NCBI RefSeq assembly: GCF_947623445.1
Contig: NC_135242.1
Coordinates: 23,436,001-23,500,000 of the forward strand
Length of the DNA stretch: 64,000 nt
From: Clavelina lepadiformis
Taxonomy: Eukaryota; Chordata; Ascidiacea; Aplousobranchia; Clavelinidae
Direction of reading: 5' to 3'
The position numbers and the translations under genes are program-made. Positions 27,805 to 64,000 of this stretch are shown here, in pieces (the first letter of the stretch is position 1; every line of letters starts with the position of its first letter). The notes beneath the pieces were generated by a model. It saw nothing but the letters and a program-made list of their open reading frames with translations. It was not told the DNA's origin and made no database searches.

Positions 27805-29680
27805 GTTAATTGTTAATTGTTTAATTGTTAAAATGTTCTTTTTATTGGTCCCCACAAGTTATGCCAAATGTCTGCAAGATTGAGCGGTTTCACTGAACGC
27901 AAAAGTCATTCGTGTTGGCGCAGTAGCTCAATGCATTGTAATTAGCGTCGCATTTGCTTGCTGTTGTCATTGCATTTTTTTATTGTACTTTGGGGCCGGG
28001 GTTATAAAAACGCTCACAAGTTCAGTGCAAAATCACAGTCAACAATAAAAGTGTTTTAATCATGGAGGTACATGAGTCAAAGATAAGCTCCTAGCGCATG
28101 TTCTTATATGTTGTAAATGTGTTATAAAGAGTTTAATATCATAGCAATTGATGGAACCGACTGCCAGGTAAGAAAGTTTAACAGCTAGAAACAATTATGT
28201 TTTGTTGAAACTTCTAAGTTTTAACCATTCAGATAATAGCAACTTTATGGAGCACGCACCTTCCGATCTAGAGATCACATAAAGTTTACACAACAACCAG
28301 CTGCGCATAAGAGAAGTTAATTGCTCGAGGCAACGCATTTTTTCTCTGCTGATAACTGTCAGATTACCTGATCGTATCCTCATCGTAGCTTCAGTTGATT
28401 TCCTGGTATATTTTACATTCTATGTATTTGTTCTCGGAGTTCCATTTTATCATTAAACCATTTGGTCCATTTAGTTTTATCTATGCGTTACCATACTTTG
28501 TAGTTCATCACAGTAATGTTCAACTAAATATATTTGAATGTCAAGTTGCCTTCCATTTAACTTGCATCTGAAAATTTAACTTGTATCATTTGGAGACTCA
28601 GCATTTTCCACCATTGTTTAGCACTTTGTTGCATCTTATCGTATCGATTGTGTTACCTCGCAAAACAATTATCAATTTCTCATCTTAAACTTTGTCATTT
28701 GCATCCACATCTGTACGATGCCTTTATATACAGTCGAGCATTTGATTTTCACATATTTATTTGTTATTTCACTAGCGCAGGACAAAAGTATGTTTGAAAT
28801 TATTCATTTAAATAAAATCGTGTTTTTGTTGCCGTTTTTGGCCTTTTAGCAAGCTTGTGGTAAAGTATTAAAATTTGAGACTATTGATATCATTATAGTA
28901 AACTGTTTTAGCATATTTTTAAGTTTTTATTTAATTGTTTTGATTATCCGATTTTTTTAAGATTTTACAGGCGACAATATTTTGCAAGCCAATAATGTCG
29001 TTACTATTTATGTTGCCAATCAATGCCATGTTAATGGCAACTGTCTAAGATACCTAAGTTCAGTTCATGTAGATTTGTGTAGACTTACTTACTAGTATGC
29101 CAGCATTGATCACAACTACTTGCCGCAGGGTGTTATTATAAATGCCACATGACTTGGACGACCGCATGTTCAGTGATTCATGGAAATCATAAAATGTTTT
29201 TCGTATTATTTCGTTGTTGGTTGTACGGTAAATACATTCAACAAGATGTTTTCTTATTTTCGCGTTTCTTTATAGTAAACGCTTATCTTTTAGTCGGTCA
29301 TTTTAAGTACGTTATCGGCTTGTAGTCTGAACTATGTTATGGCTTTGTCTAAAGAAAATATACCACTTTTTATTTGGCATTATTTTGAACCTGCTTAAAA
29401 CATTTATTTTACCGCACATAGATCTGTTGGTGAGATCTGTTGGTACTTATGATCATAGATCATAACCATTGGTCACATAGATCTGTTGGTACTTATGACT
29501 TATGAGTGTAATAATAAAAACTTTTGGAAAGTTTGAGGGACGCAGCATATTTCTACTCATTTTATCAAAATTCTTGCAAACACGATCGCAAAGTAATCAT
29601 CAATTTTCACTTTGTTACTTTAAATTATAATTCGCTCCAGGTTATTATTTTAAAGTTAAGTGCTTTTGTTTTCTATGAAA
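27805..29680. other. Duplicated spacer, no gene supported
   Basis: Second copy of the spacer also found at 6600-8430 and 55560-57290. It ends in short repeats of AGATCTGTTGGTACTTATGA near 29420-29510. Short frames differ among the copies. Confidence 0.6.
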
Positions 29681-29689
29681 TGAACTTCA

Positions 29690-30770
29690 GCCGAATTGTA
29701 CGATCTTTCATATCGGCGGTGGTCTGCCTGAACCATCTCAGCATTGTGGTTTATGAGACTGGCAGCGATGAATCCGAAATAAATCATTACGAGTGCAAAG
29801 ATTACATCGGAGTCGGTGGCAACATTACTGTACCGGCGCCTTTGCGGCTGGCATCGTCATTAGTGTTTTTCAAGATGTTAACAAAGAATTTGACCAAGAC
29901 GTCGACAACAACCTCAACTACTTTTCAGCAACATTTTACGCCACCCTGGATGAAACCTGCAAAGTTATTGTCCAAGGTAACCATTACGTCATGCCCCGCC
30001 CAATGTCCAACAGTGAATGACGTACCTGACGGTGTTGTCCACTAAAGAAAGCAAATTCTAAAGAAAATTCGTAGAGGTTCAACTGTCGTTGTTTGTCTTT
30101 AACCCCAACTTAACTGTCATGACGTCAAACCATTAAAGAATTGTTCCTGTCACGTGACTCCAATCCATCACCGCTTAAAGTTGCAAATAAGGCATTGGAT
30201 GGATGCCCAACCAATCCTGGATTTGTTTTTAATAAAACGGCTGGCTTGGAGAACAATTGTCGTTCGTCGTTCGTGTCATTCCTTCTTCCACTGGTAGCTC
30301 CTCACAAAGATGTATTCGGGCATATTCGCATCAAACTCCGCACCAAAGCTCAAAGCGAGTTTTGCAGCCACAACGCTTCAGTAAAGCGATGTATTTCAGT
30401 GGCAAAAACAATCACTCGCAGAACAGGATGTCACAGACGAACGTGAAAAAGTTATTGACCAAATTGTTTCTTTAAAAAACCAAGCGGGCACCAGAACCTC
30501 CAACGTATTTCCTAAAGATGGCGCTATTCCCTTTAGGTTAAACCTGACACAGACAGTCGATGGTAATAAAACTTTCCACAACGATTTTGCAACCGACCAA
30601 CCCATAGAAGTTTCTTCTTCTTTGATGCGCTTATTTACGTACTGTTTGTTCTTTACCGTTGTTGTAATTGTTATTGCGTTATTGGTTTATATTTTAATGA
30701 AATTTTCTATACACTACCCCATCACCTTTGCAATCTTCATCATTTTTGCGATCGTCAAAGGAAAATGACA
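29690..30770 (+). pseudogene. Unrecognised secreted/membrane protein family, copy 2
   Basis: Begins with a hydrophobic leader (SAVVCLNHLSIVVYETG), then CKDYI.VGGN, GIVISVFQDVNKEFDQDVD, FSATFYATLDE-C, GGCPTNPGF-like and NNCR words, a middle part, and a C-terminal TDQPIEVSSSLMRLF followed by two hydrophobic stretches (FTVVVIVIALLVYILM and YPITFAIFIIFAIV). The layout is signal peptide, ectodomain with several cysteines, one or two membrane spans, short tail. It is not open in one frame, so it is probably a pseudogene, though introns cannot be excluded. I found no match to a known family. Confidence 0.5.
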
Positions 30771-33487: not shown

Positions 33488-34125
33488 TTATGGAGAAACA
33501 CGTTGCTTGATGACTCGCATTTCTATATTCTCCTCTGTATTTTTCTTGCGGTTGGTGCTCTTCCGCGTCGGAGAACGTTTAGTCGGATTGGTCGGTTTTT
33601 CTCTCTTCTGTTTTCTCCTTATTGCGCCACGATTAACGTAAGAGCGTGGCCTCACTTCATGAAGATATAAGTCATTAAACACGTTCAAAGCGCTCACTAA
33701 ATCATAGTTTTGATAAGAACCTGATGGTGGCAAAGGAGGGACCCAATCGCGTAGATCGTGCCTCGGATTGTTTAGCACTGAGAAGTAAGCGATCACGACC
33801 ACTTTCAAAGATTCAAGAATTATGACACTTTGAAGGAAAGCGCTCACGAACGAAACCAACCTGAAATTTGATCAAGTTTTAGAGATGTGACGTCGTCGTA
33901 ATTGTTTATTATTTGGAAACAATTGCTCACCAATCTCTGCAGGTTTCTATCCCATACGTCATACCGTACAGGACGCAAATCACAGTCGACGCGATCATAG
34001 CAGCAACGATATAAAACCAGGCGACGTATATCGAAAAGTGAACAATAGCTAAAGGATCCAGAGTATTAGGATCAATTTCCAGGATTGTGAATTCTTGTTG
34101 CGCTTCAGCAGCAGACAATGGCGGC
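33488..34125 (-). other. s-Themis-like: last two exons, membrane spans 4-5 and tail
   Basis: Exon 25 has an acidic stretch (LEIDPNTLDPLAIVHF) and span 4 (YIVAAMIASTVICVLYG). Exon 26 has span 5 (FLQSVIILESLKVVVIAYF, compare SLKVLLLA in polycystin-1) and a roughly 90-residue cytosolic tail ending in a KR-rich stretch (RRKQKREKP, RKSTNRKK). The stop falls before the place where polycystin-1 continues with the large extracellular TOP domain and six channel spans. The identical stop position in the copy at 61997 argues that this ending is real. Confidence 0.8.
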
Positions 34126-37100
34126 CTGGATATAAACAGTTTTATTTCGTGAACAAACTGACTTCAGCAAAAGCAACCGGGCATTATACCTTGCCGATGG
34201 TCTGACTGCTGATGATGTCAATGCTTTTTCTGCCGATGACGTTGTAGCCACATTTTTTTCGACGCGAGAAGCCTTTGATTTTGTCTTTTTTGATGACTTC
34301 ATTCCTTTTACCACCGGTGATGTAGTGATCACATTTTTTTCGAAGTGCGAAGGCTTTAACTTTTTCTTTTTCTGCGACGTCATACCTTTTACCGCCGATG
34401 ACGATGTAGCCACATGTTTTCCGACTGGCGAAGGCTTTAACTTTTTCTTTTTCTGCGACGTCATACCTTTTACCGCCGATAACGTTGTAGCCTCATTTTT
34501 TTCGACGCGAGAAGCCTTTGATTTTTTCTTATTTGCAGACGTCATACCTTTTACCGCCGATGATGTAGTGATCACATTTTTTTGGACGCGCGTTGCTTTT
34601 AACTTCTTGCTTTTCGGCGACATCATTCCTTTTACCGCCGATGACGTTGAAGCCACATTTTTTTCAACTCGCAAAGCGTTTAGTTTCTTTGACGACGTTA
34701 TACCTGTTACCGCCGTTGACGTTGTTGTCACAAGTTGTTCGTCGCGGGAAGGCTTTGACTTTTTCTTTTTTGACGACGTCATATCTCTAACCGCCGACGA
34801 CGACGTAGTAGTGGCCATATTTTGATTGACGTTCGACGGGATATACTTTGTCATCTTTGGTGACGTCATGTCTCTTACTGGCGGTGACAAAGCGGCCGCA
34901 TTTCGTTCAACGCGCGACGGGATGTACTTTATCATTTTTGTTGACATCATGCTTTTTGGCGATGTCGTAGTTGTTACATCTCCTTCGACACGGGACGAAA
35001 CGATTTTTTTTTTCATCGACAAATCGTTTGGGCGAGTTTTCTCTCGTCTTTTCGTTTCTTTTACAATTTCAAATTTTCCTGGGAATTTTGGCGGTTGTTT
35101 GTTGATGATATTTGCGATTTCTCTAGATATCGATGGACGATCGTTATCTTCCGGAATACATTGACCAATTTTATTTTTATTTTGGTCAACTTTTGCGTTT
35201 TCCCTTTCTGATCTATTTCTATTGTTTTGTTTGATTGTATTTCCAGTTTTCTGGCCGTCATGGTTTTGCACAAGTGACGTGGCTGGTTTTTGCTGCCCTC
35301 TGGTGAGCTTTGGGGATTCTAGATTGTTGCCAGAGATTAGATTTCTGTTTCCTTTCCGTCGTTGGGCATGACGAAACATTAGGCTGATGAAAAAGGGCCC
35401 GGGAAAGCAAATCAAAGCGCTTTGAATACCTTTATGACGGAAGAAGAAAATTAATACGCTTTGAGCAAACAAAATATTGCAAAAACATGAGCGCCTTGGC
35501 TTTTATCGACTTTTGAACGAACTTACCAACGGCAATGTGGGACCACTTGAAGTTGTAGTGCCCAAATGTCAACACATTTCCGTCCAGTGCATGATTGTGG
35601 CCATGAAACATCATTGATGTTATCATAACCATAAATATAAAGAGAGAGCAAGTGGCAGCTTTTTCGACTCTTGTCATCACGCCATGCTGCCATGGCCTCA
35701 TGCCGTAGAGAGAATACCAGACGTGTCTGTAAATGAGAAAATTATGAGATAATAAATCGGGGCAATCGGATAAAGTTTTTAACAAACGTACCTGTCTTTA
35801 AAGTGATTCTCGCATTTTAAGAGGAACAATTTGTTGGATACTTGGAGTTCCTCCAACGTAGCGGCCCGGAATGTATATTCCGTGACGTCGCTGAACCTGG
35901 TACCGCACAGAAAGAACCAACATTCGTTGGTTTCCAGATCCCGTACAACCATCCGTTCGAGGTACCTGACGTATACCTTGCAATAAATATCTACATCATA
36001 CACCCGCTGTTAACTTGTCACTAATTCATACCACTTAGGACTGCTCCCTCCGTCATTGCGCCACATTCTTACTGCTTTGATGTCGCCCAAACTATGTGGT
36101 GTAGTAATAAGGAAAGATTCCACGCTACCCACAGATAGGACGTTTTCGTTTTCTCGCTAAACAAACAATCAATCATTGTGACGTCGGAAAAAATACCACA
36201 CATTATGGCAGACGTCATCATTTTACTTGTATGACGTGAGCATTGCTTCGTTGTCTTTTGCCCAACAGTCTCATGCTGACAGTGGCGGTGGTACCGGCAT
36301 TTGGACGACTACCGGTATAAATTGTAACATAATACCGGTATTGGTCGTTTGGCGAGTTGTCCGCAACTTCAATGAAGAGTCCCTTCAATATTTTCATGAT
36401 TTCAAGTTATTAAATCAATTCAAGAAGTTGACGTATTTAGATAACTTCATACTTTTTTTTGTGCATCTTTGTCTTTACATCTAGCCCATATAAGGATAAG
36501 AGCGTAGATGACGTAAAAGACAAGTAAAACGCTGATGATCACTGGATTTTGCTGGAATTGCTCCCAAAGATTCCAGGAGAGCTAAAACCGATTCAATAAA
36601 TAACAATTAGAAGTATTCACTTCTTTTATGTCACAAATATTTTTACTTGGTCATAATTGATCTTGTTGGGAAACACAAGAAGATGGGAAGCATATATAAT
36701 CTGAGGAATCTCTTCCTCTCCGCTCCTCTTAACCCTGTTTGTTGTGACCTGGTCTACGTCACATTCACAATTAAATATCCCAGCGTTTTGATGGACCTGA
36801 TGATAATAAGATTACTTTGCTTATAATGTTTGACATGAACAAAAACTATGAGTTAAATCAAGAATTCGTTTAAACTCTACCGCAAAACTCTCTAACAATA
36901 CAACCATGGACATCAAATATCTCACCGTGCAAGAGCCCTCGCCCCAGTCGCGCATTCGGTCTTCCCAGTGCAAACAGTTCAGTATGAATGACGTAATTGT
37001 CACGTTAATCAAACTTCCAATGCGGTAATAACCCGCACCGAGATCAACAAACACTGTCAAGTTCAGTTCGACCTGTCTATGCGGAAGCGACCTCTCAGAC

Positions 37101-40100
37101 ATCGACCAAGTGTACAAATTGTCTGAGAAAATAACTCAATATTAGGTTAAAAAATTTCAAACAATGTGCTGACGTTTACTGACATAAAACATGCGACTCT
37201 TATTTTCTGTAAACAAACCCTTTTCGTGAAACTCTTTCTTTAATTTGAAAGAGCCTTGGTCGGTAGTTTGCAGACTCATTGTACAGTTTCTGATTTTCTG
37301 ATCCATGTTTTCGACGTGAATTGTAAGAAAAAGGTCGTTTCCATCTCGTTTGTAGAGCATCCAATCAAACAAAGCCCAACCTGCGGCTTTGCTGTGACAA
37401 CCAGCCACGTCGCATTCACTCTCAACCCTCATTGTTATGTTTCCTTTACCAGGCTGTGCTGGCAAGGAGAAGCCAATTGTTTGATTTTTGGCCTCGTTGC
37501 GACTGATCGGGATCTCATCTTGCCATCCCGTTGTCATGGAGACAGACGTGACTTGATCGACTTTGTGGGTCCTCGTGTTAAAGTTGATAGATGAATCGTA
37601 GGTGAAGACCTAGAAATCATGAAATCGTCTCATTATCACGATAAATCGCGCAAAATAAAGCAAATTAGAATTTATACCTCGACATTCGTGACTTCGTTGT
37701 TCAGTGTCTGTATGTTTGGAAGTCGAAATGAAGAGCTACCATTGAGTGGGTCTGAGAAACATTTTGTCATAAATCTCCGTTTGGGTCGATTTAAAGCACT
37801 AGTTGGCGTCAAAGAGCTAGAAGAATTATACATCACGCCCTATACTGAGCAAGATATACGACAAATAGTCATGTCAAACTGGTCAACCATTGCCAAGTCC
37901 ATAATTTTCGACATGAAAGTTATCGAAAGATCATCGTAACACTTTATTTCGATGTGGCAAATTATTGTATTAGCAACGCGTAGACATGTTTTGTTTTAAA
38001 CATATGACTATGAGTCGGCGTTTAAACAAAAAAAATTAGCCACAAAGTTACACTTACGCAAATATAGGGTATTAAATTTCGACGTTGCCAGATAAAACTA
38101 GACGTAACCAGCGACTTTAGAAAAAAGTTAAACGTGATATTCGGTGAAATCATGAAACAAAACTCGTCGGAGGTCGCACTTGAGCTCAAAGTGAATGGCG
38201 AGATCGACATGCCTACAAATTAGCACTTACTGATGACGTCGTTGTTTAACTTGAGGAATTTTCCTTTGACTGATTTTGTTTCAAACGTCATCGTATCTTC
38301 ACCTGGTATCAATGACGCCATAAGCAGCTTGCCCAGCCGGGTCATTCGCGAACTTTCTTTGATCTTTGATAATAATTGTCATTTAAGAATCGATTTGTTA
38401 CGTCATTAAAATTATGCACGTTGTTACCTTGAAACTGATATCGTTGGAAAATTGCATCAAATGTGACGTAACGAAAATGCATGAAGCGGCAATAGATCTT
38501 ATGACATCATCATCGTCGTCGCTAGTGCTGGGATTACGAACGGTGTGCTCTATTCGGTCCATAATTTTCGCAATTAGGCGCTGGAAATATAAAAACAAAG
38601 AAGTTATCTTATTTTAAAATAATTTTTGTAATTTAACGCATTAAATTTTTTATTCAAGATCTTACCACGTGATAATCATTTATGACGCCGAAACCGTCTA
38701 CCAGATGACGTACGACGTCAGCAAGTTGCTTAACTGACATCAAGGTTTTTATCGGATATTTCGCAACTCGTTGGTACACTTTGTTTATCTGTTAAATGAG
38801 AAAAACAAAATTTTTCAAGTGCTCGGCGGACTGAAAAAAACTCATTATTACGTCACAAGCCAACCTGGAATCGCTCGAGAATATTCGCTGAAGACATCGG
38901 CAGCATAAGCTGCGCCGTCTGCTGCAAGTTTTGACTCGAAATCGCATTAAACAAATCGCTTATGACGTCAGTGTTGTCGTGATGATTTTTGGTCAATGAC
39001 ACAGATATGTTGTTTACTGTACAAGCCTGACGAGGACCACATATCTCAACCCAAATCATGACGTCAGAAAAACTGCTCTTTGACGGAAATGTGACGTCAT
39101 TGAGATTCGGATCGCAGCCGTGTTGTAAAAGATTATTCTGGTCTGAAAATATTTCTATGTTAGATTTTAATTTATTCAAAATAGCACTTCTACAAACACC
39201 ACATGGCTTTCTACAATCATTATACCAAGCGAAGGAAACATATTTTTTCTACTCCAGTCGAACCTCGTTATAACATATACACGGCGGGGACTTTCGAAGT
39301 GTTCACGTTAAATCCACAGTTCGTTGTAACTGTTATGGCGGTTTAAGTATGAAGATGATCAATGTACAGCACAAGGCTACAATCAAATTTGCACCACGGC
39401 ACACACCACATGGTTGGAATCGATGTAACAACTCATCATTCACTCATTGTGTGAGTTATAAATTGAACACAGGACGGCAGGAAAGCCTGCAAGCTAGAGC
39501 TTGTAATTTTATGGTCGACTCCCTGCCATCGACTTCCGCTGCCTAGGATGGCTTTCCACTCAACTCTCCACGACATGGGAGTGGCAAACGTGCGGTTTGT
39601 AATATGTATGAGTATACCGGGAAGAAACAAACCGCCGACCGCGTCATATTTGACTGCACTCCATCGACTTAGCTGATGCAACGACGCCACAGCAGTGCTG
39701 CGTGGTCTATATTTTGTCTCAGAGGGCACGTGGGCTACGACTTTGCGGCTCCAGCTTACAGTAAAGCCTTAACATGATTTTAGGCAATTTTCAAATAAAA
39801 AATGTAACTTTAATATTTTTATTCGTTTTCAATTAATTTATTTTTGGGTCATTGGCACACTTGGGACGCTGTAGATTTAACTTTAAGTTTATTTTTTAAA
39901 TGGTGTCATTTTAACTTGCTGTAGATTCATGATAATGTCATAAAGTTCTATTCATGTCACTTCTTAACACGCCACAAGTTTCACCTTTCTCTGCGGTAAA
40001 GAACTTGTACTTCAAAGGCACTTGACCTTGTGCGTAGCCATGACAGCTCACGTTAAATTTTGTGACGTAAGCAATTCCACTTCTGGGGTGAACCTTGCAA

Positions 40101-43100
40101 ATGCCCCCACTAGGTGGTAGTAGTGGAGCAAGGATCAAGGTCGCCGACGCCTTGTCACCGTCAATGTTGTAACCTGCATGTCAAGTTCAAAGTTTAATTT
40201 GATGTTGGTCAACCATAGATTTACTGATCAAGTCAATCATACATAAGGGGATTCACCTGTTCCTGTGACGTTTGATGACGTCTTAACTTTGTCGAGTATT
40301 GATTTGTTAAGTTTGCAGAATCGTTGATTCTGACACAAACTCATTTGTTGTCCTGATTTCAGCGACAACATCCAACTATGACGTATGCAATCGTCACATT
40401 CAAGTTGAAGTATGATTGGTTTGAGGGAAGAAAACAGCTTTTCGCAGTTAGACCAACACCTAAAATCCAAAGGAAAAATTTGACGTTATTTGTTTTAAAT
40501 TTATAATCTACAATTATCAAAATATAGATTTAAATTTATAACATTTATAAGCGAAAAATTATTCCAAACTCGCCTTAAAATAACAACTGGGGCTGGTTTG
40601 GATTTAATAACAATTTTTTGATCAGCGAACGTTGCGTCATAATGTGGACCGGATATGATCAGCCTGACGTAATACTGTTCGCTTGGTATCAGTTTATTCC
40701 TGGAAATTTCCAAGGTGTCATTGCCAGAAACCCAAAGAGTTTTCCAATCAAAGCAGGAACCTTGGACGTAAATCACACAAATTAAATATTGATCAAAAAA
40801 CTGGGAATTGAGGAAATCTTTTCAAACCTTTTCTTTGTATTTTTCCAATCTCTTTTGTCATTGGTAAATCTTCTTGTGCGACGGCACAAAACCAGTCACG
40901 TTTGATATTTCCCTCGTGTTGGGTAAAGTCAATTGAAGATTCAAATTTCAACACTGTTGTATTTATTCCTGGATAAAGAGATTAAGAATTTCTAGATAAT
41001 ATTTCTTTTATTGGGAAACCGCAAACCTTAAACATAGAAATCTGACATTTTGTACTCACCAGCCTCCACCACATTTCCTCCCTTGATTAGAAAATTTAAT
41101 TTCCTTTTGGGAATTTCCACCAATGTGAAGTCATCGCCCTTTGCTAATGACATATGGTAATCGTCAGAGGTTATGTTGGCGTAAACCTTTATGACGTACA
41201 AACCAGGTAATAAAGTATTGGCTTTAATCAAAAGTTCAGGTTCAACTGAGCTCGCGTTAAGTTGAACTTCATCGCCAGTGTTGGGGATGTTTATTTTTGA
41301 TGTCACTCGGTACGCTCGCCATTTGTAATTAACGGAGAATAGCTCTCTAACGCATATGAAGTTAAGGTCCACGCTTAACACCAACTCTTCAACCACTTTC
41401 AAAGGTTCGTCGAGTCCACCGCCAACTTTCCCGTCGCGAATTCTCACGCTCTCCAAACATGACGTCTGCAAAGCTTTCGGGACATTTCCCACGAAACGAA
41501 ACGATTGTTTGTCATTTCTGATCAGAACTGTGACCTGCCGAGCTTCGTTGAAAATACTTTCGTCTTTGATTAACTTGTAAGGTTTTGCGTCGAAAGGTAG
41601 ATTTGGCAAAACTTCATGCTCATATTTCGACTTTGAAATCGTTAAAGTCGAATTCTTCCACACATTTTCACCGATGGTTAAATTCATTTCGTATTTTCCC
41701 AAGTCACCTCTGATGAATACAAAAACCTCTCTACGGGTTTCGAAATTAAATCGACCTGACGTAATATATACGTCAAAAATCTGTGGTAGCGCTTCAAAAG
41801 TTGTGTTTGACGTCATCAAAGATATTTTGTTTCTAGCGGTTGCTTCAACTTTGTACATTCCTGCTCTAGATAACGTTGCCTCTACCACCATCGAGCGGCA
41901 ATCACGTGAGCAGAATGTAGAAGTTTTGTAAACAGTAAAACTGGTTTGTGTCGATATGATGTCGATTGAAAGATTTACCGGCGCTCCCTGACTAACTGTC
42001 GCGCTTATGATGAAAGAATTCGGTTGTAGACCGACGTATTGTTTCGTCATCACTTTAAGATTTTTGATTTCTTCGTTGAAAGTAATTGGTGTGAGAAACG
42101 TCACTGATGAAACATGATTTTGTAACAAAAGTGTGACGAAATGTATTCCCGGTCCAACCAATCTTTGCATCGTTGAGTTCAATTTGAACTTGACGGTTTC
42201 GTTCGATGAAATTTTCTTCTCATCAAACGTCTGTGACGTCTGAAGCTCGGTTATTATGACGTCATTCAACATGAGGGCGTAAGAGATCGGAAAGTAATAT
42301 TTGTGGTGGAATATGAGTTCAGCTGAGGCTGGATATGTGTGTCTGCTTTGTTCATGAGATATTTTCAATTTTGAAGCTGATAAAGAATCTTCCACATTAA
42401 AAAAGATAACGTTTGTTTTAAAAGAATCCACCCCTCCATCGAGATCGCATTGTGCCTGAACCGAATATATTCCAGGATAATCAAAAACACGTTCTGTTGT
42501 AAGGGTGTCAGTTGAAAGGTGACTTCTTTTTGTGGAATTGTAATGCACCTCACAGTCAAGGTTTAGATCGTTCGCTCCAGACAATACAGCAATAAACGAA
42601 ACTTTTTGTCCGACATGAATGTTCTCCATTGTATTGTCCATGCGTATACGAAAGCCTCCAATGTATTCGAAATGTTAGTCACTACTAGTATAATTAATCG
42701 ATACACCGTACTTTGCTAACATTCACTCACCAATTCGATTATAAACGAAGGACATTTTTGCCTCGCTGCAATTCTTTGTGAATCTTTGAACAGAAACCAC
42801 CACGGTTTGACGAAACAGGTAATAGGGGAAGGTTAAAGGTTTTAGAGAACCGCAAATAAGATAGTTATCTTCACTTGGGTTTAGTTTCAGCGATGCTTCT
42901 GCACAACTGTACGAAACAAATATAACATGAAACATAACTAACGTATGTCTATGGACGTGTCTGTTTTTAAAGTTGCGAAGCTGTAAAACTTGTTTTAGTT
43001 AAAAGAAATAAAAATAAAATAAAGTTTGTTTAAGAATAAAAATAGCTTGGGTTTGAGAAAGCTTGATTAGCCCACAGACGTATTGCGTCAGATTAAAACA

Positions 43101-46100
43101 AACCAAGTAATTTTCATTCATGATCAAGTGTAAGCGGTAAACTGTAAACGGTAACTTTATCGGTAAACTGTAAGCAATATACAAACTTCACTAAATTCAA
43201 AATTTACGTCCTAAATAGTATTCGCATAAGTGTGCATTCAAGTTGGTGAAGAAAACTATTGGCAGAAAACTATTCACGTAAACCACGACTAATATTTTTT
43301 CAGGAACACAAAGTTTGGCAAAGTGGCAACGGTTTACAACTACCAGTAAGAACTACTGTACGTAGCACATAATCGGACATTGAGTTTGCAATAAAAGTAT
43401 TATATATTTGGTTTGATAATACACATCGATTCAGTTTTTTTCCAATGGATAAGTTACATTGCAGAGCAGTATCGAAAAAATTCTCTCTTTACCTTTTCTC
43501 GGTTATCTAACAACATAGTTACTTGCAATCTATTGCCCGCTTATAGCTTGTTATCAGTTACTGTCTTATGCTCTATCTTTAACCCTTGTTCCCCGACCCC
43601 GGACACTTTTGGCAGCAGACAATCTAAGCGCTATGTACAAGAGTTTCAAACAGAGCCAGCATGTTGCAGAAGTATTGAGCTAATCCGTCAAACTGTTAAA
43701 CAAAATATGCCCTTGATAAACGATTTTCATTGTGATGATAAAGAAAGTTTTCAAAAATATATCAACTATCAACTATATCAACTTTTTCTAATTGCCTTTG
43801 AAAAAAGTTTTCACCGCATATTAATACTCATTGTTCTATGGGAAATTGGATGGTGGTTGGATTGGTTTTAGACTGGCCTAAGCCAAGTCTTACTGTTTGA
43901 CTCCGAAATAATTGTCTATGACTCCGTTGTTTACTGTCTTTATAATGTTTCTTCAAATCAACACCAACTTCATAAAGTCTAATTGTTATATTGTCCGAAT
44001 AAGTTGTCACATCGAAACCAATTAATCACCATTCCACATTTGAATAGAACTATCACTTGAATTCAATACTGAATAAGCCAAAACGTAAAACAGATCCAAA
44101 ACTAAAAACCGAGAGAAGTACTAGCAAGTCCTGAAGGGACAAGCCCTTGCAGAGCCTCACCAGCCCGAGCAGCCAGGACGATTTGAACCAAACTTAACCT
44201 TTTATATCATACTCGTCAGCCAATCAGCAAATCACATGTCATTATTACACTGCTACCATAAAACCACGTATCGCATACATTCTACGTCATCTAAACGTTT
44301 CATCAAGTACACTCAAACTTTACGCCGTGAAAACAATGCTACTTGAATATACTTCAATCTGCGTCAAATATGTCAGTTAGAATTCCTTGTTTGAATAACT
44401 GCTTAACGACGATAATACGTAGCTTTGCAAACATTGCATTATCTAAACTGGAGAAAATACAAAAACTCATGCAAAATGCCAATTTGTATAAATTATTGCA
44501 ATTATTAGGCTATCACGAACGCTACAGTTCTTTTTGCAAATCTGTCAAACGTTTGTGTAAACGCGAGAGACTAGCAAGAGTTTGTTAGAACATTTAAAAT
44601 TGGTAGCGTTTTTGCCAAAAGTTTGATTTCGGGTTGTAATCGACACAATCCTGCTTTAGAAGTACATGTACAGACATTTCCTTACCGCAGCAACAACAAA
44701 TTAATGAAAAACTGTAGAATAACTCGAGTTGCATTAAACTTCCCACCTGAACAAAACTTCACCAAATTGCAAATATGCAACCTCCCCCTCCTTCAGTGGA
44801 ATTTCCCACGTCGTGGTATGAGGCAGCATGACGTTATTATCACACTCCTGTGCGGTTGGAAAATCAATCTTTCCACTCGCATTCCGTAGCATTATGCTGC
44901 AGTCTGTAATAAACAATCATTGTTGCAAGTATAGGCACAGGTAGGTAGACAGAAGGCTGCAAGCGGTAGCAGTAGCATTTCAATCCTTAATAAAATCTAC
45001 TAAGATGTATAAAAGAACACGCTTTATTAAAAAGAGGTTTCTGGATTTGTTCTTTCTTGTGTCGACGTTTCATTGGCGGCATTGCCAAGCAGAAATAAAC
45101 CAAGCTAACAGGTTACTACGTCGAGTTCACAAAGTTGGCGAAAGTCTGGGAAAGCACAATGTAATAAGCCGTAACATTCCATATCTTCAATATTGCGACT
45201 ACAAAAAACATTTATATACAAACGTCATTGATTTCGCAGACAACGTCATAAACTCAGGTTTTTTAACCAGTTTCCTAAAAGGTAAATATCTAAATTGTCA
45301 ATAAATTTAATACAATTACAAATTCCGGGTTAAGATATAACTTTAACACTTAGCAGAAATATCGTTTGCAGGTTACGATTTTTGAAAAGATTTTGAAGAT
45401 ATTTTATAAAAGTGTTTTATTCCAGAATGTACGAGCATCTACGCAAGTGGTTCAACATCAAGTGGTATCTACCCGATATGGCTCAAGGAACGATTCCAGT
45501 TCACCTACGTCTACTGTGATATGGACCTCGCTTCAACTAAGAAGGGCTGGACAACAATACAAAGAAGAATGAACGGGGAGGTCAACTTTAATAGAGGTTG
45601 GGACGATTACGTCAGAGGGTTTGGGAATCCCCAGAGTGAATATTGGCTTGGGTTGGAAAATATTTATCGTTTATCGAGGCAAACTGCGAAAGCTTTTGAA
45701 GATGGTGTGACCTCAATAACAGCACCGAAGCTTGGGATTGATCTTGAAGACTGGGATGGTTTCAAGGAGTTTGCGCAATACGGAACATTTCTGTACAGGC
45801 CAAATTCAAAAAAATATTATTTACATGTGGTTGGCTTAAATGGTTCTGAGTATTTCAACAACGCTCCAATTTATCAAAGCAAGTTTAGCACACCAGATGC
45901 AAACCACGATGAAACTAGAAATCCTCATTGTGCCAGAAAATACAAATCAGGTTGGTGGTTTCATGGCTGCGGAATATCAAACTTAAATGGGCCATATCCT
46001 AAATACAAGCAACAGATGAGCTGGAACAATATTTACTGGTTCGGCTGGACGGATCTAAATCTTAATGGTACTGCTTTGCGCTTCGTTTCTATGAACTTGT

Positions 46101-49100
46101 ATCATGATAATCCATAAGAAAGTTTACTTTCTGTGTAATGCGTAAATATGTTATATAAATCGTTATGATGTTAGCTTGGTGATGTTTATGATAAAGACTA
46201 AGAAAGTGTGCAATATTCTGGTGCACAAGTTTGGTAACAAACAGTCTGTAGTATGTCATGTTGTCATCCAAAACTCGCAATGGGTTCCGTTGGAAATGTG
46301 GCAGGCAGAACAGTCGGATATAACATGGTCTGCGATATTTTTCCTTCAGAAAATTTCTCGCAAATTTTGCCACCATCATTTGTATAGAGTTGAGCGGAAG
46401 CGCCTAATGTCTGTTCGCTGACAGTTAAACAGAGAGAAGAGTTAAACAGACCCGCAGAGAGAAGAGTTTGGGAGAAAATAAAGGAGAGAATTTGGAGCAA
46501 AATTTTTGCTAACTCAACTTTTCGTCCTATTTCTTTACAATTATTAATAGTTTTGTCAGCGATATTAACAATGTTACATAACAATTATCGACTATGGCAC
46601 CTAGCTGCCAGCTAACGGCTAAAGAAAATCAGCTAAATTACTAGTCCTACGTAAACGCCACGTCTAAGTATATTCCTGACCCCTTGTGGTGCACTGAGCT
46701 ATTTGATCAGTTACATCTGATTTCGCGCATTGAGTGGATTAGTGTCGAGTGTTCGCTCAATTTTCTACGAAACTGGAGTCAATCGAGTACATAATAAATC
46801 TTCTAAGATTTCTTCAAAATTTTATGCCAATGAATACATAATAAGTTGTTGGTTGTTTGTTTTACCATCATAGAAGAGTTTTTGTGGACCAGTAGATTTT
46901 TTTACACAAGTTTTAGTTTATATTTGAAACTCAATGGCTATTGCGTATAGGCACAATTTCTTACCGGTTTTATTAAATTCATCACGGGTTTTGCCTTAAC
47001 TCTGTAGTACTGTGGAATAAGTGTCTGTATACGATTCAAGTTATAATGAAATCACAACAAACTATGGTACAACCCGGGCAAAATGGGGTAAGGCTAAACT
47101 GAACATGTAGTCTACCATAAATTAAGATACACGCTTAGGAATTGAAACATTGTAAGCCTAAGTATAATAACTGTTGGTAAACATATTTTACTATCCCATA
47201 CTATACTATATTTCTAGTCACCATCCAATGCTATATACAGTAAGTTATACTTTAACTATATTTGGCAAACGCAAACTTAAATCAAATATACCTTTGGCAC
47301 AAAAGAAAAACAGCATAAGAGAAAACCTAAAACAAAAATCGTTTACAACTAATATTTGTAAACATAAACAAAAAGTCAATCCACGTTTCTATCGACCTTC
47401 ATACGCCCTAGTCTGCCAGTTCCTCTCAAAACGTAAGTCGACCTGTTTGCATTTACTTACACAATCTTTTTTTTTAAATAGCTGGAAAAAATCTGGGCAG
47501 AATCATCACTTCAGCTTGAACTAAGCAATCAATAGACCAGGGGTCGGCAACCTGCGGCTCTTTCATCCTTCTGATGCGGCTCTTATTAATTTATTGCTAC
47601 AGTAGAAACAAACAGAAGAACACTCGCGTCTTTATCTCACTGAGCACATTATAGTAAATGAAAGCATAATCATTCTGGTTGTGACGTCATAATTAGTCGA
47701 TTAACATAAAGGTTGTTTTTAGCAGTCTACTAGCAGCAGTTAGACTAGTAAGTTAGAGAGTGCGCAGGCTGTAACAGCCAACCAATTATGAGTAAATCTA
47801 AGAAAAGAAAAGTGTCTGAAGAAAACAGAACGCTCAACGATTCGTGGACAAATTCATTTGCTTTCTTACTGAATTAACTGCTTTTATAAATGCGACACAT
47901 GACAGTTTTGTTACAGAGTGTCGTTTTCGTTTTATTGTGAAAATAGTTTTGCGGCTCCCAGTGATTTTTATTTTGTGGAATATCGGTTAAAATGGCTCTT
48001 TAAGTGCAAAAGGTTGCCGACCCCTGCAATAGACCCTTGCAGGATTCCGTGCGCAAGGGCAAAACGGCCTCGAAGATTTTATTAGCCGTTGCCGAAAAGG
48101 TAAATGAAGGAGAGAATTCGCAGCAATATTTTTGGTAACAGGAGCAATGAGGAATCATTGCCGGGTTAAAGTCGTGCCAAGTCCGAGACTAAAGATTATC
48201 ACATACCAATGTGAAGACCTCTGCGTCTTTGGATACTTTTGTGGCTTTAATTTCACGGCAAGGTACGTATTTAAAAAGGCAAAGGACTAATTTCTATAAC
48301 ACAAGATAAAGTTGCATTAAGTCATCCAAGAGGGCGGCAACATTACTTAAGGAAGGTCATGGTATGACCTCAATACGGAGCTGAAGGACAAATGTTTTAA
48401 TTGGCCTACCATATCCTACTTTTACATTTTACTTCAGGCTGGCCGGTGGTCCAGCTTATTTTGACACAGGCCGCAAAGCAAGGTTAACCAACATAGGCAC
48501 GAGCCACAACATACAGAAAATGCAATGCTTAACACACAAAAGAATGACAGTAGCTATAGAGCTGTTGAATAAGTAAATGAAATTTACTTCAGCTGTTTGC
48601 GTTTATCTTTTACGATACGATTACAATATCATTGGGCTTCGCAAGGTATTAACAACTGCCGACCATTATTGTGGTTTGTGAAACTTGTACCTGTAATATT
48701 ATACCGCTTTCCTGCTAATGGAAGCCAACTTTAGGGAGCGACCGAACAAGTGTAGAATCATTAATATCATTGAGTAAATAAGGCACTTAGTTACATACAG
48801 TAATAATAAGCTTCATAAGTTAAAACGTAGTTAACACACATAGTTAGACACAAGTAAGACCCACACAGTTGCTACGGTACCTACAGTAATAAATCTAGCC
48901 AGTTATTAAAAACTATTTCAACTTCAAACCCAATTTTCTAAAGTGTTGGTTAGAGAAACAATTGCAAATGTTTTGCTAATATGAAGCAATAATTGTCTAT
49001 TGTGAGTATCAGTTAGCCTAGTCCAAGTAATTTCAACGTCACAATCATTCAATTGACAGCAAACATTGCCTCTCTGTCAACTAACAATTGATCAATTCAA

Positions 49101-49462
49101 GTGTCAATTTCCGGCTTTATCTGTGTTTCATAATTACGGTATTTTATGAACTTGCATACGGTACCGTACCAGAAAGTCAAATAACATTTTAAAGTGAGAC
49201 ATCGTTTACACTAAATTGTTATCAAAGCATTTATATAGTAACGTCGAGTGTTAATACGTATCATGCAGATTTTTGAGGCCCAAACAGAATAGCTTGGTAT
49301 GCCAACAGTGGCAAGCGAGCCAGCATTTGGAAGACGCTGCTTTAGTTAACCAACTCTTATTTTCTTATCTTACAACACAAGCTGATATGTACAAAGCATA
49401 CCTGCGCATCCAACCATGAATGAAACAGCCAAGCAAAGTTGGAAAAATCGGGTGGTCGGCAT
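33488..49462 (-). CDS. s-Themis: s-Themis-like polycystin-1-type gamete self-recognition receptor
   Basis: 26 exons, every junction in phase: 49402-49462, 44747-44903, 42731-42906, 41060-42655, 40828-40968, 40574-40760, 40257-40459, 39961-40173, 38865-39142, 38666-38788, 38428-38580, 38231-38363, 38058-38212, 37860-37941, 37678-37751, 37180-37609, 36926-37122, 36647-36796, 36453-36581, 36227-36382, 36032-36156, 35792-35965, 35527-35726, 34190-35429, 33931-34125, 33488-33860. The product is about 2366 residues. Order: signal peptide 1-19, CUB 22-130, PKD-like modules 131-640, REJ 640-1240, GAIN/GPS to about 1500, membrane span 1, PLAT about 1565-1695, spans 2-3, a long repetitive basic loop, spans 4-5, basic tail. 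The nested opposite-strand fibrinogen-like gene in intron 1 is the known Themis layout in Ciona, where the PKD1-like protein is on sperm. All splice sites are GT-AG except one GC-AG (40574). The gene name is an inference from architecture; A, B or B2 is undecided. Confidence 0.8.
34190..35429 (-). other. s-Themis-like: span 3 and cytosolic tandem repeats
   Basis: Exon 24 begins with span 3 (VGIQSALICFPGPFFISLMF, matching the VGVQSSLIVFP signature of polycystin-1). It then encodes about 390 basic residues, the last half being seven repeats of about 27 residues (SxKKKKSKxSRVEKN then VxTTSSAVKGMT). The copy at 62699-63854 has one repeat fewer plus one codon, exactly accounting for the 84-bp length difference. 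The start at 35429 rests on the acceptor CATAAAG and on the phase; the open frame extends a little further upstream but would not splice in phase. Confidence 0.8.
35792..36382 (-). other. s-Themis-like: PLAT/LH2 domain exons 20-22
   Basis: Exon 20: YRYYVTIYTGSRPNAGTTATV, the first PLAT strands. Exon 21: SVESFLITTPHSLGDIKAVR then WRNDGGSSPKW. Exon 22: completes the Trp as W-YLERMVVRDLETNECWFFLC. This is the classic intracellular PLAT after span 1 in polycystin-1 proteins, which usually binds lipids or partner proteins (family knowledge). Confidence 0.88.
36647..36796 (-). other. s-Themis-like: degenerate GPS with furin-like site
   Basis: Exon 18 carries the GPS position (FNCECDVDQVTT) and the following strand (HLLVFPNKINYD) before span 1. 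The usual His-Leu/Thr cleavage triplet is Q-V-T here. Directly after it stands NRVKRSGEEE, which fits the furin-type R-x-K-R site. Confidence 0.7.
37678..40968 (-). other. s-Themis-like: REJ region, exons 5-15
   Basis: Cysteine and tryptophan words typical of the receptor-for-egg-jelly module: DWFCAVAQ, CWSNCEK, LECDDCIRHSW, SGGICKVHPRSG, FNVSCHGY and PLKYKF, then helical segments of the GAIN-like part (HGCDPNLNDV, VADQVAK-type heptads, SITFMSKIMDLAM). REJ modules occur in polycystin-1 family proteins and in sea-urchin sperm receptors for egg jelly, consistent with a sperm surface role. Confidence 0.8.
39143..39960. other. s-Themis-like intron 8 with a pogo/Tigger-type end
   Basis: At 39255 the plus strand reads CAGTCGAACCTCGTTATAAC, the typical left end of pogo/Tigger DNA elements. 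No matching right end was found. The GC-richer stretch 39470-39770 is unexplained. Confidence 0.5.
41060..42655 (-). other. s-Themis-like: large PKD-like exon 4
   Basis: A single 1596-bp exon (532 residues) of beta-sandwich modules. PKD-like words with the G-x-Y-x-V strand recur: YPGIYSVQAQCDL near the start, APVNLSIDIIST with AGMYKVEATARN in the middle, and PGLYVIKVYANI near the end. Many N-x-S/T sites fit a glycosylated ectodomain. This part and the CUB exons are where I would look for allele diversity. Confidence 0.75.
42731..44903 (-). other. s-Themis-like: CUB domain split over exons 2 and 3
   Basis: Exon 2 (44747-44903) gives C-SIMLRNASGKIDFP, TTTWEIPLKEG and LQFGEVLF; exon 3 (42731-42906) gives SCAEASLKL, NYLICGSLKP and a last strand with KNCSEAKMSFVY. 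Joined by phase (AG|T) they make one CUB domain of about 110 residues with the usual four cysteines. The 1.8-kb intron between them (42907-44746) holds no gene that I can support. Confidence 0.78.
45005..46117 (+). CDS. v-Themis: v-Themis-like secreted fibrinogen-like ligand nested in s-Themis intron 1
   Basis: Two exons, 45005-45281 and 45426-46117, phase 1 junction (AAA G|AA TGT), 322 residues, no internal stops. The N-terminus is basic then hydrophobic (KKRFLDLFFLVSTF), a short signal peptide; residues 30-92 are a charged, probably helical spacer. Residues 93-322 are a full fibrinogen C-terminal domain: ECTSIYASG, TSSGIYPI, VYCDMD, GWTTIQRRMNG, YWLGLENI, the calcium-loop region FSTPDANHDE, HCARKYKSGWWFHGCG, LNGPY and a shortened C-terminal end. 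It lies antisense to the receptor inside its first intron, as v-Themis does in Ciona, where the protein sits on the egg vitelline coat and meets sperm s-Themis. It is clearly different from the collagenous ficolin-like genes nearby. Promoter not identified. Confidence 0.85.
46118..49401. other. Rest of s-Themis-like intron 1
   Basis: Contains the hAT element at 47538-48026 and pieces of the 731-1032 element family (about 46480-46655 and 48050-48140). The open stretch 47174-47524 (plus) is low-complexity with no recognisable domain. No further exon is supported. Confidence 0.6.
47538..48026 (+). mobile_element. Deleted hAT (Charlie-like) element, 489 bp
   Basis: Inverted ends CAGGGGTCGGCAACCT and AGGTTGCCGACCCCTG, with the perfect 8-bp duplication CAATAGAC at 47530-47537 and 48027-48034. 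Inside, 47788-47877 encodes MSKSKKRKVSEEN...NDSWTNSFAF, the start of the hAT transposase of this class, cut after 29 codons. It is therefore an internally deleted derivative. Confidence 0.9.
49402..49462 (-). other. s-Themis-like exon 1: signal peptide
   Basis: ATG at 49462 in context AGAAAATGCC, then PTTRFFQLCLAVSFMVGCA, and a donor CAG|GTATGC. The exon ends in phase 1 (G) and exon 2 begins AC TGC, giving Asp-Cys at the CUB start. Found by looking for a leader of the right phase beyond the nested gene; too short for an ORF search. Confidence 0.75.
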
Positions 49463-57299: not shown

Positions 57300-58836
57300 A
57301 AACTTCAGCCAAATCATGCGATCTTTCATATCGGCGGTGATTTTCCTGAAATATCTCAGCATCAAGGCTTATGAAACGGCAGCGGCCAAGTGGAAATAAA
57401 TCATTACTATTGCAAAGATTACATCATAGTCGGTGGCAACCTTACTGTACCGGCGCCTTTGCCACTGGCATCGTCATTAGTGTTTTTCAAGATGTTAACA
57501 AAGAATTTGACCAAGACGTCGACAACAACCTCAACTACTTTTCAGCAACATTTTATGCCACCCTGGATGAAGCCTGCACATTTATTCTACAACCCGACCA
57601 TTACGTCATGCCGTCTTGCCCCGGGCAATATCCAACAGTGAATGACGTACCTGACGGTGTTGTCTACTCGTTTGGAAAGAAAATTCGTAGAGGTTCAACT
57701 GTCGTTGTTTGTCTTCAACCCCAACCTAACCGTCATGATGACATAAAAGAATTGTTCCTGTCATGTGACTCCAATCCATCACCGCTTAGGATTGCAAATC
57801 GTGCGTTGGATGGATGCCCAACCAATCCTGGATTTACTTTTAATAAAACGGCTGGCTTGGAGAACAATTGTCGTTAGGCGTGTGTGTTATTCCAGATTCC
57901 ACTGGTAGCTCATCACAAAGAGATATTCGGACATATTCGCATCAAACACCGCACCAAATCTCAAAGCGAGTTTTGCAGCCACAGCCCTTCAGTAAAGCGA
58001 TGCAATTCAGTGCAAAAACAATCACGCGCAGAACAGGATATCACAGACGAACGTGACAAAATTGTTGACCAAATTGTTTCTTTAAAAAACCAAGCGAGCA
58101 CCACAACTTCTAACGTCTTTCCTGAAGATGGCGCTATAGCCTTTACGTTAAACGTGACACAGGCAGTCGATGGTAATAAAACTTTCGACAACGATGTTGC
58201 AACCGACCAACCCATTGATGTTTCTTCTTGGATGCGTTTATTTTCGGACTGTTTGTTGTTTACTGTTGTAATGATTATTTTCTCGTTCATGTAGCCAGGC
58301 TTAATTTCACATTTACGGTGAACCGCGGCACGTTTAACTGCGAGTAACTATATACCGTGTACATCTGTAACAGCGAGTAACTGTGAGTAACCTTCAACTG
58401 TGAGACTTTGTAGCGTTATCACGCTAATGAAACAAACCGATGATCTTCGAAAAGCCACATTTTATTGGTCTCGGCCAGACGCCGACTCAGACTAACAACT
58501 CTAAAAAGCGCACAATCTTTATATATAACAAAGGTGCCAAATCACGTGATTAAAATAGTTCACAAACGCGTAAAAGGTGCTGATAGGTAAAAACGCTTCA
58601 AACAAAAACACGATGATAAGTAACGACACAACATGTGAGGAACAAAGTCCGTAACACTGTTGTTATAATTGTTATTGTTTTATTGGTCTATATCTTAACG
58701 AAATTTTCTAGACACTACCCCATCACCTTTGCAATCTTCACCATTTTTGCAATCGTCAGTATTTTGGCGGTCATTTTGTTCAAGATAATTTCTGGTTCAA
58801 GTCATCTTCTAATTTTCGTTATTTTCAACTGGTGAT
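57300..58836 (+). pseudogene. Unrecognised secreted/membrane protein family, copy 3
   Basis: The longest-preserved member: leader (AVIFLKYLSIKAYET), CKDYI.VGGN, GIVISVFQDVNKEFDQDVD, FSATFYATLDEAC, MPSCPGQYPTVNDVPDGVVY, FGKKIRRGSTVVVCLQPQP, LDGCPTNPGFTFNKTAGL, VFPEDGAIAFTLNVTQAVDG and ATDQPIDVSSW, then hydrophobic spans. The region coding the first membrane span is split by a 390-bp solo LTR (58267-58656). A second span block follows (IVSILAVILFKII). Not open in one frame, hence called a pseudogene. Ectodomain cysteines and two C-terminal spans suggest a surface protein; function unknown. Confidence 0.5.
58267..58656 (-). mobile_element. Solo LTR, 390 bp (Ty3/gypsy-like)
   Basis: On the minus strand it begins TGTTACGG and ends in CA. 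It is bracketed by the 4-bp duplication CTGT (58263-58266 and 58657-58660). A TATATATAA box and, about 60-70 bp further on, an AATAAA signal lie in the order expected of an LTR. Removing it restores alignment with the copy at about 30655, so the target is known. No internal retroelement region is present. It is a fossil younger than the large duplication. Confidence 0.75.
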
Positions 58837-61996: not shown

Positions 61997-64000
61997 TTAT
62001 GTAGAAACACGTTGTTTGATGACTCGCATTTCTATATTCTCCTGTGTATTTTTCTTGCGGTTGGTGCTCTTCCGCGTGGGAGAACGATAAATTGGATTGG
62101 TCGGTTTTTCTCTCTTCTGTTTTCTCCTTATTGCGCCACGATTAACGTAAGAGCGTGGCCTCACTTTATGAAGATATAAATCATTAAACACGTTCAAAGC
62201 GCTCACTAAATCATAGTTTTGATAAGAACCTGATGGTGGCAAAGGAGGAACCCAATCGCGAAGATCATGCCTCGGATTGTTTAGCACTGAGAAGTAAGCG
62301 ATCACGACCACTTTCAAAGATTCAAGAATTATGAAAGTTTGAATGAAAGCGCTCACGAACGAAACCAACCTGAAATTTGATCAAGTTTTAGAGATGTGAC
62401 GTCGTCCTAATTGTTTATTATTTGGAAACAATTGCTCACCAATCTCTGCAGGTTTCTATCCCATACGTCATACCGTACAGGACGCAAATCACAGTCGACG
62501 CGATCATAGCAGCAACGATATAAAACCAGGCGACGTATATCGAAAAGTGAACAATAGCTAAAGGATCCAGCGTGTTTGGATCAATTTCCAGGATTGTGAA
62601 TTCTTGTTGCGCTTCAGCAGCAGACAATGGCGGCCTGGATATAAACAGTTTTATTTCATGAACAAACTGACTTCAGGAAAAGCAACCGGGCATTATACCT
62701 TGCCGATGGTCTGACTGCTGATGATGTCAATGCTTTTTCTGCCGATGACGTTGTAGCCACATGTTTTTCGACGCGAGAAGCCTTTGATTTTGTCTTTTTT
62801 GATGACTTCATTCCTTTTACCACCGGTGATGTAGTGATCACATTATTTTCGACGCGCGAAGGCTTTAACTTTTTCTTCTTCTGCGACGTCATACCTTTTA
62901 CCGCCGATAACGTTGTAGCCCCTTTTTTTTCGACGCGAGAAGCCTTTGATTTTTTCTTATTTGCGGACGTCATACCTTTTACCGCCGATGACGTAGTGAT
63001 CAAATTTTTTTGGACGCGCGTTGCTTTTAACTTCTTGCTTTTCGGCGACGTCATTCCTTTTACCGCCGATGACGTTGAAGCCACATTTTTTTCAACTCGC
63101 AAAGCGTTTAGTTTCTTTGACGACGTTATACCTTTTACCGCCGTTGACGTTGTTGCCACAAGTTGTTCGTCGCGCGAAGGCTTTGTCTTTTTCTTTTTTG
63201 ACGACGTCATATCTCTAACCGCCGACGACGTAGTAGTGGCCATATTTTGATTGACGTTCGACGGGGTATACTTTGTCATCTTTGGTGACGTCATGTTTCT
63301 TACTGGCGGTGACAAAGCGGCCGCATTTCGTTCAACGCGCGACGGGATGTACTTTATCCTTTTTGTTGACATCATGCTTTTTGGCGATGTCGTAGTTGTT
63401 ACATCTCCTTCGAGGCGGGACGAAATGATTTTATTTTTCATCAACAAATCGTTTCGGCGAGTTTTCTCTCGTCTTTTCGTTTCTTTTACAATTTCAAATT
63501 TTCCTGGGAATTTTGGCGGTTGTTTGTTGATGATATTTGCGATTTCTCTAGATATCGATGGACGTTCGTTATCTTCCGGAATACATTGACCAATTTTATT
63601 TTTATTTTGGTCAACTTTTGCGTTTTCCCTTTCTGATCTATTTCTATTGTTTTGTTTGATTGTATTTCCAGTTTTCTGGCCGTCATGGTTTTGCACAAGT
63701 GACGTCGCTGGTTTTTGCTGCCCTCTGGTGAGTTTTGGGGATTCTAGATTGTTGCCAGAGATTAGATTTTTGTTTCCTTTCCGTCGTTGTGCATGACGAA
63801 ACATTAGGCTGATGAAAAAGGGCCCGGGAAAGCAAATCAAAGCGCTTTGAATACCTTTATGACAGAAAAAGAAAATTAATATGACTTGTGCAAACAGAAT
63901 ATTGCAAAAACATGAGCGTCTTGGCTTTTATCGACTTTTGAACGAACTTACCAACGGCAATGTGGGACCACTTGAAGTTGTAGTGCCCAAATGTCAACAC
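61997..64000 (-). CDS. s-Themis: Second s-Themis-like gene, 3' exons only (cut by window end)
   Basis: Exons 61997-62369, 62440-62634, 62699-63854 and 63952 to beyond 64000 correspond one for one to the last four exons of the first gene, with the same splice sites, phases and stop. Exon 25 of both copies encodes the same protein apart from silent changes. The repeat exon is 84 bp shorter, with six instead of seven basic 27-residue repeats. All are open. The rest of the gene, and any nested fibrinogen-like partner, would lie to the right of the window. It could be a true paralogue (B/B2-type tandem) or a second haplotype placed in tandem by assembly. Confidence 0.85.

Follow-up and report, generated by a model that had tools for sequence, protein, structure and literature searches.

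In Ciona, self-fertilization is blocked when s-Themis on sperm matches v-Themis of the same haplotype, as has been demonstrated genetically (PMC7018956). The block requires a match at all s/v pairs, and s-Themis-B and s-Themis-B2 are near-identical except for the N-terminal HVR (PMC7018956). Homologues of s/v-Themis are also described in Halocynthia roretzi and Ciona savignyi (PMC9265791, PMC8849226).

We analyzed a 64,000-nucleotide stretch of the Clavelina lepadiformis genome (C3:23436001-23500000, hereafter the window) and searched the genome (209.06 Mb, 95 contigs) for related loci. A PKD1/REJ-type receptor gene (s) occupies the minus strand of the window, and a fibrinogen-like gene (v) lies on the opposite strand within its first intron (Table 1). 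We estimate a probability of about two in three that this locus is one of ~28 nested Themis-type s/v pairs, members of a greatly expanded gamete self-recognition family without a detected channel.

Table 1. Coordinates of the s/v pair and of adjoining features in the window.
Feature	Position in window	Strand	Basis
s gene, PKD1/REJ-type receptor	33488-49462	minus	Phase-consistent exon chain
s exon 1, signal-peptide exon, codes MPTTRFFQLCLAVSFMVGCA, ends in phase 1	49402..49462	minus	Conserved leader and donor
s intron 1, encloses the entire v gene of the opposite strand	44904..49401	minus	Gene models of s and v
s exon 2, start of the variable region	44747..44903	minus	tblastn against five cluster representatives; 29/30 v loci
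s exon 3, variable region	42731..42932	minus	tblastn against representatives; acceptor unsure (42906 or 42960, depending on the model)
s exon 4, 1596 nt, PKD-like repeat and start of REJ	41060..42655	minus	Pfam; 28 near-full-length open genomic copies
s middle exons: REJ, degenerate GPS-like stretch, TM1, PLAT/LH2, further TM segments, Lys-rich repeat	33931..40968	minus	Pfam, PDB polycystin-1, gene model; some borders unsure
s last exon: final TM segment, basic tail, stop at 33488	33488..33860	minus	Conserved in C3b and C2
v exon 1, hydrophobic leader and short following stretch	45005..45281	plus	Gene model; paralogous leader exons
v exon 2, entire Fibrinogen_C domain and stop	45426..46117	plus	Pfam Fibrinogen_C, E 2e-45
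Hyperdiverged core relative to the tandem neighbour: v gene and s exons 2, 3 and start of 4	42300..48542		Pairwise alignment
s gene of the next pair, 3' end	61997..64000	minus	FBG at C3:23508361; repeat unit ~28.5 kb

The best s model is a GT-AG, phase-consistent chain of 28 exons (2313 codons), with uncertain borders at exons 3, 6, 9, 13-14, 17 and 24-26. An earlier note on this DNA had claimed 26 exons with all phases fitting; the existence of a phase-consistent chain makes that claim plausible, but the 26 exons were not reproduced one by one. In the model, intron 1 was barred to exons by hand, and the codon table came from seven training stretches with 16 stops in 1272 codons. Exon scores are rough, because some of these training stretches are out of frame. 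Earlier gene models, which either placed spurious exons inside s intron 1 or had ill-set weights, were rejected.

The signal-peptide exon and the distant second exon proposed in the earlier note are both borne out. Exon 1 reads MPTTRFFQLCLAVSFMVGCA/G with the donor GCAG/GTATGC. Leaders resembling it, with the same donor, are present in the C3b, C2 and C4 representatives, and at every one of the 12 intact pairs in C3, C2 and C4, exon-1-like DNA lies past the FBG gene on the s strand. All five cluster representatives share exon 2 (phases 1 to 2), which lies opposite-strand near the FBG at 29/30 v loci, with C5_22548 as the exception. Exon 3 was detected in 21 of the 27 stretches examined. The first ~120 codons of exon 4 are variable and the remainder is backbone. 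In the C4 and C9 representatives, the tail coded by the last exon falls out of frame.

In the spliced s model, Pfam recognized both REJ (7e-22) and PLAT/LH2 (2e-16); the PKD repeat reached 27.2 bits, over the cut-off, with the exon-4 frame alone, and 21.2 bits, under the cut-off, with the spliced model. The s product resembles polycystin-1/PKDREJ in its REJ, PLAT and N-terminal membrane passes, and the region spanning TM1, PLAT and TM3 has a match to PDB polycystin-1 with E 2e-25. To our knowledge, ordinary members of the polycystin-1/PKDREJ group have the channel half present and no nested ligand gene. Hydropathy marks TM1, TM2, the last two segments and one segment in doubtful exons, and TM3 was seen by alignment to polycystin-1 only. 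Pfam gave no GPS match in the spliced s model of the window, and a genome-wide exon-wise profile search gave 57 GPS matches, none of them at s/v pairs, probably because an intron splits the GPS. A GPS-like Cys/Trp pattern can be read as CQCGHYPVT in a C5 copy and as CECDVDQVTT in the s gene of the window. An exon-wise search, which a split channel could escape, found no PKD channel (PF08016) near any s/v pair; all pairs therefore look five-pass, like s-Themis-A.

Lys/Ser-rich repeats, with 81-base steps between matches, are present in the s frame at window positions 34130-35494 and 62656-63927. They differ between s copies and, by topology, would lie in a cytoplasmic loop.

A complete fibrinogen-like gene between s exons 1 and 2, as had been claimed, is present: its two exons (45005-46117) code for 322 aa with a leader, one Fibrinogen_C domain and a stop. 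The leader exon suggests that the v product is a secreted fibrinogen-like protein. The nearest solved structures to the v FBG are angiopoietins (PDB, E 5e-33). The first 60 FBG codons (window 45428-45607, and equivalents elsewhere) show a synonymous divergence (pS) of 0.07-0.26 even between chromosomes; in the same between-copy comparison, pS is 0.41-0.69 for v codons 81-240 and 0.29-0.58 for the s backbone. Either interlocus conversion or constraint on synonymous sites may underlie the low values.

With the large s exon (exon 4, 531 aa) as the query, we found 28 open copies covering at least 519 residues, one copy with stops (C2:24700149-24701204) and several fragments. The 28 copies are distributed over five chromosomes (C3, 5; C2, 6; C4, 1; C9, 7; and C5, 9), and the clusters sit within the final 0.8-4.7 Mb of the contigs that carry them. 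A single-exon FBG domain is present on the opposite strand, at the exon-1 side, of every copy (28/28), at a distance of 1131-3435 bases (median 2009). It is full length in 27 of them, the exception being C5_23076, where the frame is broken and cut to 144 codons. Together with the FBG beside the stop-broken s copy and that of a repeat on C9 (C9:12988417), 30 v copies were read, and 29 of them have an FBG frame that is 222 codons or longer. Exon-1-like DNA lies beyond the FBG on the s strand at 26 of the 28 pairs, namely the 12 of C3, C2 and C4, 7/7 of C9 and 7/9 of C5, where some matches are weak; the C9 and C5 first exons were picked by a leader-plus-donor rule. At C5_22548, none of the leader exon, exon 2 and exon 1 could be identified convincingly. 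Among the matches listed, no full single-exon FBG lies beside a REJ or channel match elsewhere in the genome. The nested architecture is not a product of chance, because it is repeated at 28 loci.

In these counts, v leader exons were accepted only if >250 and <310 nt. The s exon 4 of C5_23076, although one of the 28 open copies, was left out of the set of exon-4 sequences retrieved, and this locus was also dropped from the FBG counts. The copy C9_12988, identical to C9_12919, was left out of the pS tests and trees and kept in the whole-domain dN/dS analysis.

It is most improbable that the copies are assembler-split haplotypes of few loci, or decayed duplicates devoid of function. Such a reading can draw on C9:12988417, which repeats C9:12919192 without difference over 3615 nt, with 200 N nearby and s exon 4 absent, and on the stops of C2:24700149, the cut FBG of C5_23076 and the out-of-frame tails in the C4 and C9 representatives. 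Moreover, s exon 4, s exon 2 and v, rather than whole s frames, were the parts read at all or nearly all loci. However, the tandem copies are ordered on the same contigs and mostly have distinct cores, 28/28 of the counted large exons are open, and the published BUSCO duplication is 0.6% (PMC10884593).

Several further features were observed around the pairs. The C9 segments 12917692-12921306 (L019) and 12986917-12990531 (L018) are the identical ones, the 200 N lie in the 6.5 kb after the second, and further FBG and exon-1 matches of this repeat keep the same 69,225-base offset; it is either a recent duplication or a false one. Exon-1-like DNA is doubled at 5/7 C9 pairs, and at the C2:24610491 pair exon-2-like sequence occurs a second time, on the other side of the FBG (L038:3633-3779). 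Similar plus-strand frames adjoin the s gene at window positions 29518-30768 and 57350-58294, one per tandem unit, and one of them has a likely membrane segment; Pfam gave no match for three plus-strand frames beside s genes. Dozens of short FBG-like exon matches, mostly to profile positions 44-87, are scattered over C3:23.07-25.12 Mb (window 2294, 11946 and 53468); these seem to belong to a second, multi-exon FBG family that has expanded on this chromosome arm. Away from intact pairs, exon-1-like DNA or fragments of s exons occur as orphans at C4:24173670, C3:22501468, C4:24078226 and C7:2415058-2438150.

The tandem neighbour of the window pair lies at a distance of 28.5 kb. Between the two, backbone exons are 95.6% identical and backbone introns 93.7% (2425/2444 intron bases aligned), whereas core sequence outside the s exons aligns at 1162 of 5425 bases only, with 75.6% identity. 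A third pair (C3:23135799) has a core 95-98% like that of the window over 44.5-48.5 kb, unaligned gaps aside, on a backbone that is no closer (92-96% over 39.3-42.5 kb, the part compared). We conclude that core and backbone have different histories.

In all four multi-copy clusters, v codons 81-240 exceed the backbone in pS by a factor of two to eight, with bootstrap intervals apart. The values for v and for the s exon-4 backbone are 0.536 and 0.069 in C3, 0.229 and 0.089 in C2, 0.249 and 0.076 in C9, and 0.509 and 0.221 in C5. The pS of s exon 3 also exceeds that of the backbone where it was read (C3, C9 and C5), as does the pS of exon 4 codons 1-120 in C3, C9 and C5. Intervals overlap that of the backbone for exon 4 codons 1-120 in C2 and for v codons 1-60 in C3; nor does pS set s exon 2 apart from the backbone in C2, C9 and C5. 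Point estimates of pN/pS are all <1, so that core divergence speaks for lineage age more than for proven adaptive change. At the level of whole domains, dN exceeds dS in few pairs (for the FBG in 0/10 of C3, 0/21 of C2, 0/28 of C9 and 0/28 of C5), and adaptive diversification of domains therefore lacks support.

The v gene co-diverges with the s variable region in two of the four clusters. Mantel tests of v variable against s variable distances gave r 0.93 (p 0.004) in C5 and r 0.92 (p 0.043) in C3, with r 0.10 and 0.21, respectively, for the backbone; neither C2 (r 0.42, p 0.148) nor C9 (r 0.25, p 0.117) reached significance. The corresponding rank correlations are 0.01 in C5 and 0.32 in C3. 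As r is high and the rank correlation low, a few close pairs carry the signal. Unsplit pairwise distances had given mixed rank correlations (-0.19 to 0.80), and the variable/conserved split was devised after these were known. Five close pairs are sisters both in the v tree and in the s-variable tree, and in no case in the backbone tree; the backbone rejects one of the five as a clade (C9_13118 with C9_13267, p 0.026; others 0.39-0.48).

The v tree places the five C3 copies in three lineages, one of which includes the C4 copy (support 100/98), and a single C3 clade is rejected (AU p 0.0002). The backbone tree unites C3 at 100/100 and rejects C3_23080 with C4 (AU p 2e-5). With the s variable region alone, a C3 clade is not rejected (p 0.281), and the second test (C3_23080 with C4) gave p 0.083. 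Both the C3 split and the C3_23080/C4 grouping had been noticed in a quick tree before testing, and these p values are not those of prior hypotheses.

The pairs might instead serve Themis-type gamete recognition of another kind, namely positive or species-level binding of sperm to the egg coat, or mate choice, with pairs diversified by duplication and interlocus exchange. We consider this unlikely. The same anatomy, the 28 loci and pN/pS estimates <1 are compatible with it, and in the aplousobranch Diplosoma mate incompatibilities are not predicted by relatedness (PMC7344649). In contrast, a self-recognition locus needs just such linkage of a receptor with a nested ligand, and just such lasting divergence of the core, and the variable parts of v and s co-diverge in C3 and C5.

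Under the preferred reading, that of gamete self-recognition, s would be a large polycystin-1/REJ receptor of the sperm type, in which a leader and a variable N-terminal ectodomain are joined by a PKD-like repeat, REJ, a degenerate GPS, PLAT and ~five membrane passes. By analogy with Ciona, sperm would carry s, and v would be secreted as a fibrinogen-like ligand to be expected on the coat of the egg. The core of each s/v pair would be inherited as one block, and s would recognize the coat v of its own haplotype; a match would denote self, so that the sperm would be stopped and fertilization blocked. With no PKD channel found in these genes, calcium would have to enter through a partner channel, such as TRPP. 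Expression in gametes, binding of s to v and self-sterility, for the window pair as for the others, are thus predicted from the architecture. C. lepadiformis is a colonial, embryo-brooding aplousobranch (PMC10884593), which counts against self-sterility, and our literature search found no paper on self-sterility in Clavelina.

More tentatively, and with the odds rather against it, the ~28 pairs in five clusters may constitute a many-locus barcode for self, in which the backbone would be homogenized within clusters by interlocus exchange while the ligand and receptor-tip core would be old and move as one block. In one case, a ligand is closest to a ligand on another chromosome. If the barcode exists, and if the block needs a match at all loci as in Ciona, self would be rejected and almost every relative admitted: by our arithmetic, sperm of a sib would match all five clusters with a frequency of ~(1/2)^5 = 3%, provided that clusters behave as blocks with four parental types.

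FBG proteins are common immune lectins, and a polycystin receptor with a fibrinogen lectin could serve somatic recognition, be it colony allorecognition or lectin-type immunity. REJ polycystins, however, are typically sperm proteins, and the architecture is that of the described gamete system; we regard a somatic or immune role as quite improbable. It would suit a colonial animal such as Clavelina (PMC10884593), and allorecognition in Clavelinidae is described as unstudied (PMC7344649).

No report of Themis pairs in Clavelina, or of a comparable expansion, was found in the open literature, subscription papers falling mostly outside the search. Themis pairs are already known from C. intestinalis, C. 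savignyi and H. roretzi, and the large expansion of s/v pairs in Clavelina appears to be new. It touches two open questions: how large the set of loci in a self-incompatibility system of animals can be, and what keeps receptor and ligand matched after duplication. With ~nine times as many pairs as Ciona, in a brooding colonial ascidian of another order, Clavelina would offer replicate loci for the study of co-evolution, gene conversion and match logic. The s/v pairs also suggest themselves as molecular candidates behind mate incompatibility in Diplosoma and other aplousobranchs; in a 2020 review, the genes for this incompatibility are called unknown (PMC7344649).

The earlier note held that the pair fits the Ciona Themis system. 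This stands for the PKD1/REJ/PLAT receptor, the opposite-strand fibrinogen-like gene in the first intron and the diverged N-terminus with its partner. The fit is incomplete in that the window holds one of ~28 pairs, its GPS is unrecognized by Pfam and no PKD channel was found. Clavelina belongs to a different ascidian order and has ~28 pairs on five chromosomes, against three pairs at two loci in Ciona, and its self-recognition function is predicted by likeness of architecture. For H. roretzi, "at least four alleles of s/v-Themis gene pairs" are described, and the accessible text reports no expansion of the size seen in Clavelina (PMC9265791, PMC8849226). Ciona s-Themis-A has five passes and no channel and s-Themis-B has 11 passes, whereas no channel-bearing (B-type) copy was found in Clavelina. 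Divergence among paralogues within one Clavelina genome is similar in pattern to the individual-level hypervariability of the Ciona s N-terminus and v. As in s/v-Themis-A, -B and -B2 of C. intestinalis type A (C. robusta), the v gene lies in the first intron of s in the opposite direction; and as in Ciona Themis, a REJ and LH2 receptor has a variable N-terminus, with a conserved backbone and a divergent N-terminal region in the manner of B and B2.
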